Shown piece by piece: positions 18,511 through 34,394 of a DNA stretch of 64,000 nt. How positions within the stretch are numbered: position 1 is the first letter of the stretch; each line of letters begins with the position of its first letter. The notes beneath the pieces are model-generated. The model did not search any database. It worked only from the letters and a program-made list of their open reading frames with translations, and was not told the DNA's origin. The translations under genes were made by a program, and so were the position numbers. Origin of the DNA: Allobosea thiooxidans (lineage in GTDB: Bacteria; Pseudomonadota; Alphaproteobacteria; Rhizobiales; Beijerinckiaceae); contig NZ_FUYX01000006.1 in assembly GCF_900168195.1 (NCBI RefSeq), positions 186,001 to 250,000 of the forward strand. The letters are read 5' to 3'.

Positions 18511-18993
18511 TTAGTGCCCCTTGTGCTGGCCCTCGCCGCCGCCCTTGGCGGCGATCGAATCCACCTTGAACTCGACATCGACGCTGCCGGCCTTCTCGAA
18601 GGTCAGCGTGCCCTTCATCATCTCGCCCTGGTTCAGCTGCTGCTTCAGCTCCATGAACATGATGTGGTAGCCGCCGGGCTTGAACTCGACCTTGGCGCCG
18701 GCCGGGACCTCAACGCCCTGCTCCATCGGCCGCATGGTCATGACGCCATCCTTCACCGCCATCTCGTGGATCTCGGAGCGCGCCGCGAAGGGGACGGACA
18801 CGGAGACGAGCCGGTCGGCGACCGCGCCGGTGTTCTCGATGCTGAGATAGCCGCCGCCGACCTTGGCGCCCGCCGGCGTGGCACGCGACCAGGGATGGCC
18901 GATCTTCAGCGGGCCCGCCTTGAACTCATGGGCGGAGGCGAAACCGGCCGAGAGCGCGAGCACGGCAGCCGCGAGCGAGTACGAAAGCTTCAT
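18511..18993 (-). CDS. Periplasmic copper chaperone PCu(A)C
   Basis: A 160-residue exported protein. Residues 1-21 are a signal peptide (MKLSYSLAAAVLALSAGFAS, then AHEF). The mature domain has HPWSRATPAGAKVGGGYL and the methionine/histidine copper site spread over IHEM...MTMRP...YHIMFM, the H(M)x10Mx21HxM-type pattern of PCuAC. The Lys/Gly/His-rich end GGEGQHKGH may add a further metal ligand. The family delivers Cu(I) to the CuA site of cytochrome oxidase. The start at 18993 follows AGGATATCAACC; the longer frame to 19347 overlaps the next gene's register. A DUF2946 gene lies 109 bases upstream on the same strand. Confidence 0.92.
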   Translation of the reverse strand: MKLSYSLAAAVLALSAGFASAHEFKAGPLKIGHPWSRATPAGAKVGGGYLSIENTGAVADRLVSVSVPFAARSEIHEMAVKDGVMTMRPMEQGVEVPAGAKVEFKPGGYHIMFMELKQQLNQGEMMKGTLTFEKAGSVDVEFKVDSIAAKGGGEGQHKGH

Positions 18994-19102
18994 GGTTGAT
19001 ATCCTGAACGGACGGGCCGCTGACGCAGCCTCGTGAGGGAATGCCACCGCTCCATGCTGGAGCGCACAGGCCGGAATTCGAGGGGATTGAAAGGCCGGAG
19101 GT

Positions 19103-19480
19103 TCAGCCGGCAGGCGGCGCGCGCGATTGCGCAAGCCCGGCGGCGAACCGATGCGGCAGCCCCTCGGCCAGCGCGAAAGACGAGGGCAGGCGGATGGCGA
19201 GCCGCCCCGGCTCGGGCGCGGCCTCGACCGGAGGGCCGGCGAAGACCGGATTGAGCGGGCAGCCCTTGCAATGGGCGAGATCGCCGAGAGGAACGGACTG
19301 ACCGTCATCCGGAACGGGCGCGCCCGAGCAGAGCACGAAGCCGTCATGACCGCTCAGGGTCGCCAGCGCCGGAGCCGGCGCAAGCGCCAGGGCCAGCACG
19401 CACAGCGCATAGGCCGTCGCCAGCCAGACTCCGAGATCGGAGCGGCGAAGGCGGTCGAGAAAGGCGCCACGAGCCAGCAT
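19103..19480 (-). CDS. DUF2946-like small membrane protein
   Basis: A 125-residue protein with one hydrophobic segment near the N terminus (VWLATAYALCVLALALA), an extracytoplasmic region with CSG and HCKGCPLNP Cys/His motifs, and a Pro/Ala-rich end. The His plus Cys-X2-Cys motif is typical of the DUF2946 proteins found beside copper-handling genes. It precedes PCuAC on the same strand, which supports a role in copper acquisition; metal binding is inference. A longer frame in another register crosses it and is considered a shadow. Confidence 0.75.
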   Translation of the reverse strand: MLARGAFLDRLRRSDLGVWLATAYALCVLALALAPAPALATLSGHDGFVLCSGAPVPDDGQSVPLGDLAHCKGCPLNPVFAGPPVEAAPEPGRLAIRLPSSFALAEGLPHRFAAGLAQSRAPPAG

Positions 19481-19606
19481 GGCCGCAGATGGCGCCGCTT
19501 CCGCAGCTTCGTCAAGCCGCGCATTGCCGCATCCTTGCCGGAGCGCAAAGAGCGTTCCGGAGAATATTCTTCTCCCGGCATTGGTTTCTTTAAAAGAACG
19601 AACCGG

Positions 19607-19635
19607 TTGACAAAGAGGACGCTTTTCGCCAGATT
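19607..19635 (+). promoter_or_regulatory. Candidate housekeeping promoter of the met operon
   Basis: A perfect TTGACA at 19607-19612 is followed 17 bases later by CAGATT at 19630-19635, a weak -10. Transcription would begin about 20 bases before the SAM-II element. A perfect 10-bp palindrome AGAATATTCT lies just upstream at 19561-19570 and could bind a regulator. Confidence 0.5.
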
Positions 19636-19662
19636 GCAGATCGTTCCCGGAGCAATCGGGGA

Positions 19663-19716
19663 GCCGCGGAGATTTGAGCGAGCAGCTTGCGCCGCGTCAC
19701 CAAACGCTAAAGCGCC
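19663..19716 (+). promoter_or_regulatory. SAM-II riboswitch (metA-type) upstream of metNIQ
   Basis: This stretch matches the SAM-II aptamer as I remember it. The P1 strand CGCGG (19665-19669) is followed by AGATTTGA, then GCTTGC, then the pairing strand CCGCG (19692-19696) followed by T, and after eight bases CGCTAAAGC, the conserved GCTAAA. SAM-II is an H-type pseudoknot found in alphaproteobacterial methionine genes, and SAM binding usually blocks translation. A perfect 7-bp hairpin (CCACGAC / GTCGTGG, about 19715-19731) follows, then the Shine-Dalgarno of a leader ORF. The position before a methionine importer fits. A covariance-model search (Rfam SAM-II) would settle it. Confidence 0.82.
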
Positions 19717-19753
19717 ACGACTGGGTCGTGGGCTCCAGAACGAGGAGACTGAC

Positions 19754-19822
19754 ATGACCGTTGTGAAACCGAGCCGAAGCCAAGTCCGCTTCCGCCGAAT
19801 GCCCTGCTGCTGTCGACGCTGA
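19754..19822 (+). CDS. 22-codon leader peptide with three consecutive Cys codons
   Basis: MTVVKPSRSQVRFRRMPCCC followed by RR and TGA. It has the best ribosome-binding site in the area (GAGGAG ending 9 bases before the ATG) and sits directly after the SAM-II element. The basic body ends in Met-Pro-Cys-Cys-Cys-Arg-Arg, with the Cys codons TGC TGC TGT at 19805-19813. A GGCC-GAAA-GGCC hairpin (19831-19842) and a GCCGC/GCGGC hairpin (19869-19882) lie between its stop and the next gene's start, as expected if ribosome stalling at Cys codons controls downstream expression. This is inference; no homologue was checked. Confidence 0.6.
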   Translation: MTVVKPSRSQVRFRRMPCCCRR

Positions 19823-19895
19823 GATCGCAAGGCCGAAAGGCCGTCCCCATCCGATCGTTTCGACGAACGCCGCCTGAGCGGCCAAAGGCAGAGCC

Positions 19896-20144
19896 ATGTC
19901 CCAGTTTCATTCCGTTCCCAGCCGGGCCCGCCCGGCGCAGCAGGCCTATGTCATCGAGCTCGGCGAGGCCCAGATCGGGCTCGTGAGCCGGCGCGCCGAC
20001 GAGCGCGACTTCACCTTCGTCTCGGCCTCCGCCGCCTTCCGGGCTCTCGACGGCCAGCGCTTCGCCACGCCCGGCGCCGCCGAGGTCGCGGCACGCCGGC
20101 TCGTCCGCCCAGGGCGGCACGGGCCGCTGCCCCTGGCTTCGTGA
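19896..20144 (+). CDS. Small hypothetical protein in the met operon
   Basis: An 82-residue protein starting MSQFHSVPSRARPAQQAYVI. The middle part, IELGEAQIGLVSRRADERDF and FTFVSASAAFRALDGQRF, reads as a compact beta-alpha fold, and the end is Arg-rich. I do not recognise the family. AAAGG lies 7 bases before the ATG, next to a small hairpin. The next small ORF begins 7 bases after its stop and metN follows closely, so it should be on the metNIQ message under SAM-II control. Coding is supported by position, ribosome-binding site and codon use similar to neighbours, not by recognised homology. Confidence 0.6.
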   Translation: MSQFHSVPSRARPAQQAYVIELGEAQIGLVSRRADERDFTFVSASAAFRALDGQRFATPGAAEVAARRLVRPGRHGPLPLAS

Positions 20145-20151
20145 GGCGGCG

Positions 20152-20322
20152 ATGCGGTTCCTCCACGCCATCTGGCAGGATCTGACGGCCTGGTTCGCCC
20201 GGGCCGTGCCGGTGACGCTCGAATCCTACTACGGCGCGGGCGGCGAAGCCCGGCCCGTTCCGGTCCGCGACAGCCTGCATGAGCAGCCTGTCCCGCATTG
20301 GTCGTCCCACACGCATTTCTGA
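20152..20322 (+). CDS. 56-residue hypothetical ORF overlapping the metN ribosome-binding site
   Basis: It translates as MRFLHAIWQDLTAWFARAVP, then VTLESYYGAGGEARPVPV, ending in PHWSSHTHF. The N-terminal part could form an amphipathic helix. GAGGCGGCG precedes its ATG. Its TGA stop (20320-20322) overlaps the GAGG that serves metN, so translation of metN is probably coupled to it. I do not recognise it. It is shorter than most gene-calling cut-offs and could be a purely regulatory coupling ORF. Confidence 0.55.
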   Translation: MRFLHAIWQDLTAWFARAVPVTLESYYGAGGEARPVPVRDSLHEQPVPHWSSHTHF

Positions 20323-20329
20323 GGACATG

Positions 20330-21436
20330 ATGAACGCCCCCGTCAGACCCGGCGCCTTGAGCGCCGGCGCCCTGCCCATTGCCCTTGCCGAACCCGCGAT
20401 CCGCTTCGAGAAGGTGGGCAAGACCTATGCGGCGCGCAGCGGCCAGCAAGCCGTGAGCGCGCTCGCCGGCATCGATCTCTCCGTGCCCACCGGCAGCATC
20501 CTCGGCGTGATCGGCCGCTCCGGCGCCGGCAAGTCGACGTTGATCCGCCTCGTCAACGGCCTGGAGCGCGCCACCGACGGCCGCATCCTGATCCATGGCG
20601 AGGACGTCACGAAGCTGACCGAATCCGGCTGGCGTTCGCAGCGGCGCCGGATCGGCATGATCTTCCAGCACTTCAACCTGCTCTCCTCGCGCACCGTCTT
20701 CGACAATGTCGCGCTGCCGCTGGAGATCGCCGGCACGCCGCGCGCCGAAATCGCCGCCAAGGTCGAGCGGCTGCTCGCGCTCGTCGGCCTGGCCGACAAG
20801 AGCGAACGCTATCCGGCAGAACTCTCGGGCGGGCAGAAGCAGCGCGTCGGCATCGCCCGGGCGCTCGCCACGGACCCCAAGGTGCTGCTCTGCGACGAGG
20901 CCACCTCGGCGCTCGACCCCGAGACGACGCGCTCGATCCTGGCGCTGCTGCGCCAGGTCAACCGTGAGCTCGGCATCACCATCCTGCTGATCACCCACGA
21001 GATCCCGGTGATCAAGGAGATCTGCGACCGTGTCGCGGTGATCGAGGGCGGGCGGATCGTCGAGGAAGGCGAGACCTTCGCCGTCTTCACCGCCCCGCAG
21101 CATCCGACGACCGCGCGCTTCGTCGAGACCGTGACCGGCGTCGAGGTGCCCGAGCACCTCGCCAGCCGCCTGCGCACGGAAGCACGACCCGGCGACAGCC
21201 TGGTCCTGCGCATCACCTTCATCGGCGAGAACGCCACGGCCCCTGTGATCAGCCGGCTGAGCGCGATCGTCGGGATCGACGTCAACATCCTGGCCGGGCG
21301 GATCGACGCGATCGCCGGCCAGCCCTTCGGCAGCCTGCTGGTCTCGGTGCCCTCGCGCGCTCCGGAAAGCGAAGCGGTGCTCGGCGCCCTGAAGAGCCTC
21401 GGGCTCAAGGCGGAGGTGATCGGCCATGTCTCCTGA
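20330..21436 (+). CDS. metN: Methionine ABC transporter ATP-binding protein
   Basis: ATPase of the D/L-methionine importer. About 368 residues from the ATG at 20330; the ATG at 20327 is only two bases past the GAGG, and a longer frame to 20279 reads through the preceding small ORF. Walker A is GRSGAGKST, the signature LSGGQKQRVGIARAL, Walker B VLLCDEATSALD and the H-loop LLITHEI. Residues about 275-365 form the C-terminal NIL domain that binds methionine and inhibits transport when cytoplasmic methionine is high. It overlaps metI by 11 bases. The extra 30-residue N terminus rich in Ala/Pro is longer than E. coli MetN. Confidence 0.96.
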   Translation: MNAPVRPGALSAGALPIALAEPAIRFEKVGKTYAARSGQQAVSALAGIDLSVPTGSILGVIGRSGAGKSTLIRLVNGLERATDGRILIHGEDVTKLTESGWRSQRRRIGMIFQHFNLLSSRTVFDNVALPLEIAGTPRAEIAAKVERLLALVGLADKSERYPAELSGGQKQRVGIARALATDPKVLLCDEATSALDPETTRSILALLRQVNRELGITILLITHEIPVIKEICDRVAVIEGGRIVEEGETFAVFTAPQHPTTARFVETVTGVEVPEHLASRLRTEARPGDSLVLRITFIGENATAPVISRLSAIVGIDVNILAGRIDAIAGQPFGSLLVSVPSRAPESEAVLGALKSLGLKAEVIGHVS

Positions 21437-22091
21437 ACTCATCCGCCTGATCTGGCAGTCGACGCTCGACACTCTGGTCATGGTCGCGGTCGCCGGCGGC
21501 ATCGCGACGCTGCTGGGCCTGCCGCTCGGCGTCTTCCTTGCCACCAGCAAGCGCGGCGAGCTCTTTGCCGCGCCCGCCGCCAACGCCGTTCTGGGCGTGC
21601 TGGTCAACGCCACCCGCTCGACGCCCTTCATCATCCTGGTCGTCGCGATCATCCCGTTCACCCGGCTCGTCGCCGGCACCTCGATCGGTACCGCGGCCGC
21701 GATCGTGCCGCTGACCGTCGCCGCGACGCCCTTCATCGCGAGGCTGATCGAAGGCGCGGTGCGCGAGGTCGACCAGGGGCTGGTCGAGGCCGCGCGCGCC
21801 ATGGGTGCCACGCCCGTCCAGATCGTGCGCAAGGTGCTGGTACCCGAGGCGCTGCCGGCGATCGTGCTCGGCCTGACGCTCGCTTTGGTCAGCCTGATCG
21901 GCTTCTCCGCCATGGTCGGCGCGGTCGGCGGCGGCGGGCTCGGCGATCTCGGCATCCGCTACGGCTACCAGCGCTTCATGCCCGATGTGATGGCGGTCGT
22001 CGTCGCCGTGCTCATCGTCCTCGTCCAGCTCGTCCAGAGCATCGGAGACCGCCTGGCGCGCCGCCTCAACAAGCGCCTGCGCCACGCCTGA
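21426..22091 (+). CDS. metI: Methionine ABC transporter permease
   Basis: A 221-residue permease with about five membrane helices. The EAA loop that contacts MetN reads EAARAMGATPVQIVRKVLVP, followed by GFSAMVGAVGGGGLGDLGIR, a segment characteristic of MetI. The start codon ATG 21426 lies inside the end of metN, giving an 11-base overlap and translational coupling. It works as a homodimer with MetN2 and receives methionine from MetQ, encoded 38 bases downstream. Confidence 0.96.
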   Translation: MSPELIRLIWQSTLDTLVMVAVAGGIATLLGLPLGVFLATSKRGELFAAPAANAVLGVLVNATRSTPFIILVVAIIPFTRLVAGTSIGTAAAIVPLTVAATPFIARLIEGAVREVDQGLVEAARAMGATPVQIVRKVLVPEALPAIVLGLTLALVSLIGFSAMVGAVGGGGLGDLGIRYGYQRFMPDVMAVVVAVLIVLVQLVQSIGDRLARRLNKRLRHA

Positions 22092-22129
22092 CCCGTCATC
22101 CCATCCGTTCAATCGAAGGAAACCGCATC

Positions 22130-22930
22130 ATGACCATCTCGTTCAGCCGCCGCGCCGCGCTCGCCGCCGGCCTCTCCTTGGCCTTCGCCGCCGGCCCCGC
22201 CCTCGCCCAGCAGAATCAGGTGCTCCGCATCGGCGTCACGCCCGGCCCGCATGCCGAAATCCTGGAGAAGGTGAAGCCGCTCGCGGCGCAGAAGGGCCTC
22301 GACCTCAAGATCACCGAGTTCTCCGACTATGTCGTGCCGAACCAGGCGCTCGACGCCGGCGAGCTGGAGGCCAACTCCTTCCAGCACGAGCCCTATCTCG
22401 ACAACCAGGTGAAGGATCGCGGCTACAAGATCGTCAAGGTCGGCCTGACCGTGAACTTCCCGATCGGCATCTACTCGTCGAAGTACAAGAGCTGGGCCGA
22501 GATCCCGGACGGCGCCACCATCGCCATCCCGAACGACCCGACCAATGGCGGGCGCGTGCTGCTGCTGCTGCAGGACAAGGGCGCGATCAAGCTGAAGGAC
22601 GGCGTCGGCTTCAAGCCGACCGTCGCCGACATCACCGCCAATCCGAAGAAGTTCAAGATCATCGAGCTCGAGGCCGCCCAGACGCCGCGTTCGCTGGCCG
22701 ACGTCGCCGCCGCCGCGATCAATACCAACTACGCGGTCGACGCCAAGATCGAGCCGACCTCCGCCATCCTGCGCGAGGACGCCAAGGGCCCCTATGTCAA
22801 CCTGATCGCGGTTCGCGCCACCGACAAGGACAAGCCCTGGGTCAAGACGCTGGTCGACGTCTACCACAGCCCGGAAATCAAGAGCTTCATCGCCGAGCGC
22901 TACAAGGGCGCCGTGCTGGCCGGCTGGTAA
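22130..22930 (+). CDS. metQ: Methionine-binding protein of the Met ABC transporter
   Basis: A 266-residue NlpA-family binding protein. The signal region SFSRRAALAAGLSLAFAAG has a twin-Arg and a cleavage-like ALAQ, but no Cys lipobox, so unlike E. coli MetQ this should be a soluble periplasmic protein; Tat export is possible. VLRIGVTPGPHAEILEKVK opens the mature part, followed by ITEFSDYVVPNQALDAGELE and NSFQHEPYLD, typical of MetQ. It follows metI by 38 bases, with GAAGGAAA before the ATG. The operon ends in a strong terminator. Confidence 0.95.
   Translation: MTISFSRRAALAAGLSLAFAAGPALAQQNQVLRIGVTPGPHAEILEKVKPLAAQKGLDLKITEFSDYVVPNQALDAGELEANSFQHEPYLDNQVKDRGYKIVKVGLTVNFPIGIYSSKYKSWAEIPDGATIAIPNDPTNGGRVLLLLQDKGAIKLKDGVGFKPTVADITANPKKFKIIELEAAQTPRSLADVAAAAINTNYAVDAKIEPTSAILREDAKGPYVNLIAVRATDKDKPWVKTLVDVYHSPEIKSFIAERYKGAVLAGW

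Positions 22931-31378: not shown

Positions 31379-34394
<3,016 letters not shown>

Follow-up and report, generated by a model that had tools for sequence, protein, structure and literature searches.

Riboswitches of the S-adenosylmethionine (SAM)-II class (SAM_alpha, RF00521) and leader peptides rich in cysteine (Cys) codons are two known kinds of bacterial control element before sulfur genes. The leader described here precedes the methionine importer operon metNIQ of Allobosea thiooxidans, in a 64,000-nucleotide stretch (the window) of its 5.37-Mb genome (contig NZ_FUYX01000006.1, positions 186,001 to 250,000). It is best called a new combination of the two kinds, a SAM-II-type riboswitch and a Cys leader peptide. 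The leader is proposed, with a probability of roughly 0.7, to be a two-input sulfur sensor that would read SAM through the riboswitch and cysteine supply through ribosome stalling. Coordinates are window positions on the plus strand unless marked otherwise.

The part of Corbino et al. (2005, PMC1273637) that presents SAM_alpha gives it several features found in the window element: the P1 stem, the pieces GATTT, GCTTGC and GCTAAA, the P2 pseudoknot, a position after a promoter, and sulfur genes downstream. The window element differs from RF00521 in a further hairpin (P3) before the 3' strand of P2, in a score below the gathering score, and in its target, metNIQ. The SAM_alpha targets named in a passage of Leyn et al. 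(2014, PMC4239095) are metY, metA, metX, metW, metC and hom, and metNIQ is not among them. The metA and metZ switches of S. meliloti (Scheuer et al. 2022, PMC9373788) are likewise alphaproteobacterial SAM-II elements with control away from the start codon. In the relevant passages of that paper both genes have terminators, metA also has a riboswitch-controlled Shine-Dalgarno sequence, and no Cys leader peptide is described; no intrinsic terminator like theirs was found around the window leader (19400-20400). Tandem SAM riboswitches precede metN/metI/metQ in Bacillota (PMC12452182), so SAM control of this importer is not new as such. Those switches belong to another SAM riboswitch class and another phylum, and the passage on them mentions no Cys leader peptide.

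On the peptide side, the polycysteine leader ORFs (open reading frames) of mycobacteria (Canestrari et al. 2020, as cited in PMC9094748), in the passages of PMC4633059 that treat them, resemble the window ORF in being short and upstream, in the cluster of Cys codons at the C-terminal end, and in the sulfur genes that follow. The mycobacterial ORFs are leaderless, whereas the window ORF has a Shine-Dalgarno sequence (GAGGAGA, 19742-19748), sits behind a SAM-II-type aptamer and occurs in another phylum; judged by its start, it would not belong with the mycobacterial attenuator. The uORFC-8-2 motif before cysS in Rhodobacterales (PMC8632094) is also an alphaproteobacterial leader ORF with tandem Cys codons, but its target is cysS, it has an intrinsic terminator, and no riboswitch is described in the passage on it. 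Among the open-licence papers listed, judged by title, abstract start or passages, none was found that links a Cys leader peptide with a SAM riboswitch, and none on SAM-II with metNIQ. In the enterobacterial mgtA leader, a Mg2+ riboswitch and the MgtL peptide share one leader; its ligand, codons and genes differ from those of the window leader.

The original prediction, made without database searches, had placed the pieces of a SAM-II pseudoknot in order before a 22-codon ORF, two further small ORFs and metNIQ. The pieces were confirmed at 19665-19711. CGCGG (19665-19669) pairs with CCGCG (19692-19696) as P1, which encloses GATTT (19671-19675), the 5' strand of P2 (GAGC, 19680-19683) and GCTTGC (19685-19690); GCTAAA follows at 19706-19711, which completes the SAM-II core in its usual order. 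The 3' strand of P2 (GCTC) lies at 19732-19735, and P3 (CCACGAC-TGG-GTCGTGG, 19715-19731), which has no counterpart in the Rfam SAM_alpha consensus, is inserted just before it. A cmscan of a 401-base stretch matched RF00521 at 19656-19730 with 28.6 bits (E 1.2e-4) over all 79 model positions; RF01726 scored 17.0 bits on the same stretch. Since 28.6 bits is below the gathering score of 36, the element is named a SAM-II-type variant and not a member by Rfam's rule. A score below this threshold had been set beforehand as a result that would speak against the prediction, and on this count the prediction failed. The failure is plausibly explained by P3, which is absent from the Rfam alignment and likely depresses the score. 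In a scan of the whole window at gathering cut-offs, a thiamine pyrophosphate (TPP) element alone was reported, and the SAM-II element was not.

Across 99 genomes of the family, 12 genomes, one of them the window's own, had SAM_alpha elements just upstream of metQ-linked genes, with scores of 24.7-38.7 bits. One of the 12, a relative at 38.7 bits, passes the cut-off; the other 11, the window's included, fall below it. The metQ regions of the 20 best other genomes from the family search were compared, and the aptamer pattern GCAGCTTGC-N(1-2)-CCGCGT...GCTAAAGCG was present before metNIQ in 16 of these 20 closest related operons, which argues that the window's match is not due to chance. The pattern was not found in four leaders (L078, L081, L085 and L088). 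Homologous leaders without the cores were the other result named in advance as refuting, and the 16 leaders support the predicted arrangement of a SAM-II-type aptamer before the importer with small ORFs between. P3 (CCACG...CGTGG) was present between GCTAAA and the pseudoknot 3' strand in the window and all 16 relatives.

A search with the aptamer pattern alone, blind to downstream content, gave at least 119 stretches, from which 80 loci with 81 matches were taken. Two (L139 and L168) were too near the locus end to be used; the 79 remaining named matches, the window and the 16 relatives made up 96 leaders. Almost every locus carried the title of an alphaproteobacterium (Bosea, Chelatococcus, Microvirga, Azospirillum, Roseomonas, Methylopila, Novosphingobium and others); the titles of a few metagenome-assembled genomes said only Proteobacteria or Pseudomonadota, and one said Actinomycetota.

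P3 was detected by pattern in 47 of the 58 non-sphingomonad named matches listed (46 distinct). The 46 distinct sequences and the window were aligned (n=47), so that the presence of P3 in the alignment is by selection. In these P3-selected sequences all six counted P3 pairs form throughout; four are invariant, and one occurs as A-U in 25, G-C in 19 and G-U in 3. One P2 pair occurs as A-U in 15 and G-C in 14 and is unpaired in 18. Only 70.6% of P2 cells are paired, and the helix is therefore shifted or absent in some sequences. The pseudoknot covariation that the original prediction had called for was found: the P2+P3 covariation score, the percentage paired and the number of double changes were each unreached by all 500 shuffles. 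The actual P2+P3 positions were 88.3% paired, against 34-52% for slid structures. The best loop/tail helix, which is not always at the P2 position, scored 11.2 vs 9.2 (standard deviation 0.4, maximum 10.2) for 200 tail permutations (92 distinct pairs, Sphingomonadales included). Many invariant aptamer columns partly reflect selection by the pattern. The GAGC/GCTC pairing in the window and the covariation among relatives are what a SAM-II pseudoknot should have, and the P3-bearing elements would form a structural subclass of SAM-II, mostly below curated thresholds.

Two more sub-threshold SAM_alpha matches occur in the window's genome, L001 at 33.9 bits and L002 at 30.4 bits. They precede genes for an SsuA-family binding protein and an ATP-binding cassette (ABC) ATPase (best match sulfonate-type, under cut-off), and by eye have neither P3 nor a separate Cys ORF. 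With metNIQ, import-type genes thus lie behind each of this genome's three strongest SAM_alpha matches. None of its genes for pyridoxal phosphate enzymes of Cys/Met metabolism coincides with the SAM_alpha places listed.

The 22-codon ORF (19754-19822, stop included; MTVVKPSRSQVRFRRMPCCCRR) ends in three Cys codons (19805-19813), two Arg codons and the stop. It would be a Cys-codon leader peptide, not a small protein, as judged from its codons and their recurrence. A tiny ORF with at least one Cys was present in 16 of 16 pattern-bearing related metNIQ leaders, and 13 of the 16 passed a strict test for a short ORF with Cys, then Arg/Lys, in the last nine residues. For a wider test, 95 dereplicated leaders were divided into 21 from Sphingomonadales (a manual assignment based on record titles), 10 'direct' leaders, in which the first good start leads into an ORF of at least 120 codons, and a rest group of 64, which includes some leaders without a leader ORF. 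In the rest group the strict test was passed by 41 of 64 leaders among the matches listed (shuffles: mean 4.0%, maximum 12.5%), and 31 of 64 had at least two Cys in addition, vs 1.0% (maximum 4.7%) in shuffles.

The leader peptides span from MRCRR to 40-odd residues. Requiring a Cys among the final 14 residues, together with a small-protein gene that starts within 420 nucleotides (nt) downstream, gave 31 unique peptides; the codon, Shine-Dalgarno and Rho tests drew on the 33 leaders (32 or 31 distinct) that combine a Cys ORF with such a start. In the 31 peptides the last Cys lies 0-5 codons before the stop and is followed by Arg in 24. TGT made up 55 of their 83 Cys codons; the corresponding figures for background genes (script-called long ORFs) were 28 of 145 in the window and 89 of 348 at the loci. 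A charging sensor would require just such minority Cys codons close to the end of the ORF, and control codons at this place are also typical of trp-type attenuators. A CCC-R-stop pattern was counted 14 times in the window's genome vs 2 for the reversed pattern; the count was set aside, because CTG runs in another frame give the same letters. SAM-II leaders of Sphingomonadales (L089, L093, L099, L108, L122, L147, L158 and others) have a tiny ORF of about eight codons, often MRM-like, with Cys inconsistent; by eye, TonB-receptor-like and TauD-like genes are among those downstream.

The original prediction had counted three unstudied small proteins in front of metN. Only the 82-residue protein (19896-20144) stands as a member of a conserved small-protein family, one that is nearly free of Cys and methionine (Met); the 22-codon ORF is better read as the leader peptide, and the 56-residue ORF (20152-20322), at most a possible gene, shows little conservation (one significant tblastn match among 20 relatives, L070 at E 9e-6; L083 non-significant at E 0.24). 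Relatives of the 82-residue protein were encoded within 3.6 kb downstream of 41 of the 96 aptamers searched. The 39 family members with a clear start contain no Cys and three internal Met in 2,889 residues; some members found later carry Cys (e.g., L218 and L227). MetQ has no Cys and no internal Met among the 265 residues past its start, and both proteins would suit synthesis under sulfur shortage.

The window's 82-residue protein had no Pfam or NCBIfam match. Four of 28 family members, the window's not among them, showed weak similarity to DUF6894 (E no higher than 0.1, best 5.3e-4); otherwise other family members gave single stray matches in Pfam/NCBIfam. An AlphaFold2 model showed three strands and two helices (mean pLDDT 84.4). 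A YkuJ fold was considered and not assigned (best Foldseek E 0.74, best VIA-align Z 4.1), and no solved structure was convincing.

Of 297 genomes sampled across the order, the window's own included, 94 contain a match to the family profile. Sixty-eight small-protein places were examined: 28 of the first 30 loci (own locus excluded; L239 left out because no frame could be read) and another 40. A SAM-II core lay at most 400 nt upstream in 26 of them, and 23 of these 26 had a short ORF with Cys in the last 12 residues (shuffles: mean 12.8%, maximum 30.8%). Among the 42 places without a detected core, 17 still had such an ORF (shuffles: mean 10.8%, maximum 28.6%), 7 with at least two Cys (shuffled 1.4%, maximum 9.5%), and 25 had none by the same last-12-residue test. 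Because 17 of the 42 places without a detected core keep the Cys ORF, the ORF and the small-protein gene are associated beyond the riboswitch, which may be a later layer added to this pair. By eye, some small-protein genes behind a SAM-II element are followed by genes that look unrelated, groES/groEL-like in L244 and antiporter-like in L229, L232 and L234, so the small-protein gene may be a single-gene unit there. Sulfur-scavenging genes occur downstream at other loci: SsuA-family proteins (L138 over cut-off, L120 under), a TauD-family dioxygenase (L091), and a luciferase-like monooxygenase (L131) whose best NCBIfam match, under cut-off, is alkanesulfonate monooxygenase.

In the proposed two-input sensor, the P3-bearing SAM-II-type variant would report the level of SAM, and plentiful SAM would most likely lower expression, as in the characterised SAM-II switches. 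The leader peptide would report the supply of cysteinyl-tRNA: when cysteine is short, ribosomes would slow at the TGC/TGT codons before the stop, and repression of the downstream genes would be relieved. The regulated genes would be those for the sulfur-poor small protein and the importer MetNIQ, and low SAM together with low cysteine would favour import. The step acted on would be Rho-dependent termination or translation. If this is true, SAM-II-type control extends to methionine import, a structural subclass lies mostly under the usual annotation threshold (11 of the 12 metNIQ-linked matches), and alphaproteobacteria have a natural two-input RNA device for sulfur status. The small-protein family (94 of 297 genomes) is probably part of the sulfur-starvation response. 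A broader reading was given even odds: on one transcript, SAM as the end product would be read by a riboswitch and cysteinyl-tRNA as the precursor by a leader peptide, so that sulfur amino-acid metabolism is sensed at both its ends, with the nearly Cys/Met-free small protein as the older target, sulfur importers joined in some lineages, and the aptamer as a P3-bearing SAM-II subclass for the most part missed at curated thresholds.

Several results weigh against the two-input sensor. Besides the score of 28.6 bits, two of the five covariation measures were not above shuffles (pairs with a double change, 182/500; pair types, 497/500), and the covariation, helix and leader statistics ignore common descent. 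Cys ORFs were at background level in Sphingomonadales (1 of 21) and in direct leaders (1 of 10), and some downstream genes have no clear sulfur link (a TctC-type protein in L092, a TPR protein in L148). No intrinsic terminator was found in 19400-20400, so a trp-type attenuator is not seen. In computed folds of 33 loci, placing a ribosome over the Cys codons failed to unmask the next Shine-Dalgarno sequence (access 0.32 to 0.34, p 0.22), and one at the leader start gave as much access (0.35). A mimic of the bound pseudoknot gave no consistent change in access of the leader Shine-Dalgarno (26 loci, p 0.41), and a C-rich Rho-type signal after the leader peptide was weak and could not be told apart from that of the next coding region (p 0.08).

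The same tests gave some further values. In the window, access of the next Shine-Dalgarno rose from 0.30 to 0.49 with a ribosome on the Cys codons, and it also rose in L100; that of the leader Shine-Dalgarno rose from 0.50 to 0.75 under the SAM-binding mimic. The duplex energy in the unmasking test was -27.2 vs -26.1 (standard deviation 0.5) in permuted sequences, a weak difference. In 27 of 32 loci the stretch behind the leader peptide had more C than G, an excess greater than that upstream of the aptamer (p 3e-5), which hints at Rho and is not specific.

Other explanations of the leader were weighed. The SAM-II element may be an off-switch acting alone, with the tiny ORF as a translated spacer (a standby site or coupling device) whose Cys codons sense nothing. 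A SAM-II switch that acts on translation at a distance is known from a passage on S. meliloti metA (PMC9373788), and the Sphingomonadales leaders retain a tiny ORF while Cys is inconsistent. Against a mere spacer speak the 41 of 64 leaders whose ORF has Cys-Arg/Lys close to its end (4% of shuffled ones), the TGT bias, and the Cys-codon ORFs before the small-protein gene at 17 of 42 places without a detected SAM-II core; this explanation was considered unlikely. Quite improbable is one in which the conserved TGTCG..CGCTGA stretch itself acts as an RNA or protein-binding motif and gives rise to the Cys codons only incidentally. The nucleotides TGTCGNCGCTGA do recur in several leaders (the window, L131, L162 and L164), yet the Cys runs (CCC, CC, CRC, CCMCC, final CCCC) vary in sequence and surroundings and remain in the reading frame of a start codon.

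A Cys-rich nascent peptide might instead sense redox state or a metal, not tRNA charging. Many of the leader peptides have vicinal Cys, and a redox role was put forward for the mycobacterial Cys-rich ORFs in a passage of Shell et al. (PMC4633059). However, minimal peptides such as MRCRR and MTLMCRSA hold a single Cys, 2-3 residues before the end, and this Cys would not yet have left the exit tunnel when the ribosome is at the stop; the TGT bias fits decoding speed better; such sensing was rated a shade less probable than the binding motif. That the aptamer-like stretch is decayed or a chance match without function is scarcely credible: its 28.6 bits fall under the gathering score, as do the scores of 11 of the 12 metNIQ-linked matches (window included), but the core pattern is kept in 16 of 20 relatives, and P2/P3 covary in the aligned sequences.

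As for the genes themselves, the predicted order of small ORFs and metNIQ was borne out. The metN gene (20327-21436) encodes the methionine ABC transporter ATPase with a NIL domain (PF00005, PF09383); its best NCBIfam match is TIGR02314 MetN, with 400.9 bits under a cut-off of 499.7. The metI permease gene (21426-22091) matched NF008049 with 237.4 bits (cut-off 212), and metQ, for the substrate-binding protein (22130-22930), matched PF03180 with 310 bits and TIGR00363 with 238.6 (cut-off 228.85). MetN with a NIL domain, MetI and MetQ are thus encoded in one operon, as in a MetNIQ importer, with MetN below its equivalog cut-off.

The predicted TTGACA promoter was borne out in part. A putative promoter (19607-19635) has TTGACA at 19607-19612 as its -35 and, at a spacing of 17 nt, a weak -10 that reads CAGATT (19630-19635); a promoter scanner found no promoter-like pair at this site. 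By eye, TTGAC or TTGC is seen in several relatives, with TAGATT, TATGTT or TATAAG at a comparable distance after it. AGAACG/CGTTCT-like halves flank TTGACA at 19595-19612, and likewise in L001, L069, L070 and L080 (by eye); at these sulfur promoters they are possibly an operator.

Elsewhere in the window, at 18511-19480 on the minus strand, a PCu(A)C copper chaperone gene adjoins a 125-residue ORF with a C-x-x-C-P motif and no Pfam match, possibly a copper-responsive upstream ORF. The TPP riboswitch is a standard one on the minus strand at 34098-34202, with 75.3 bits.

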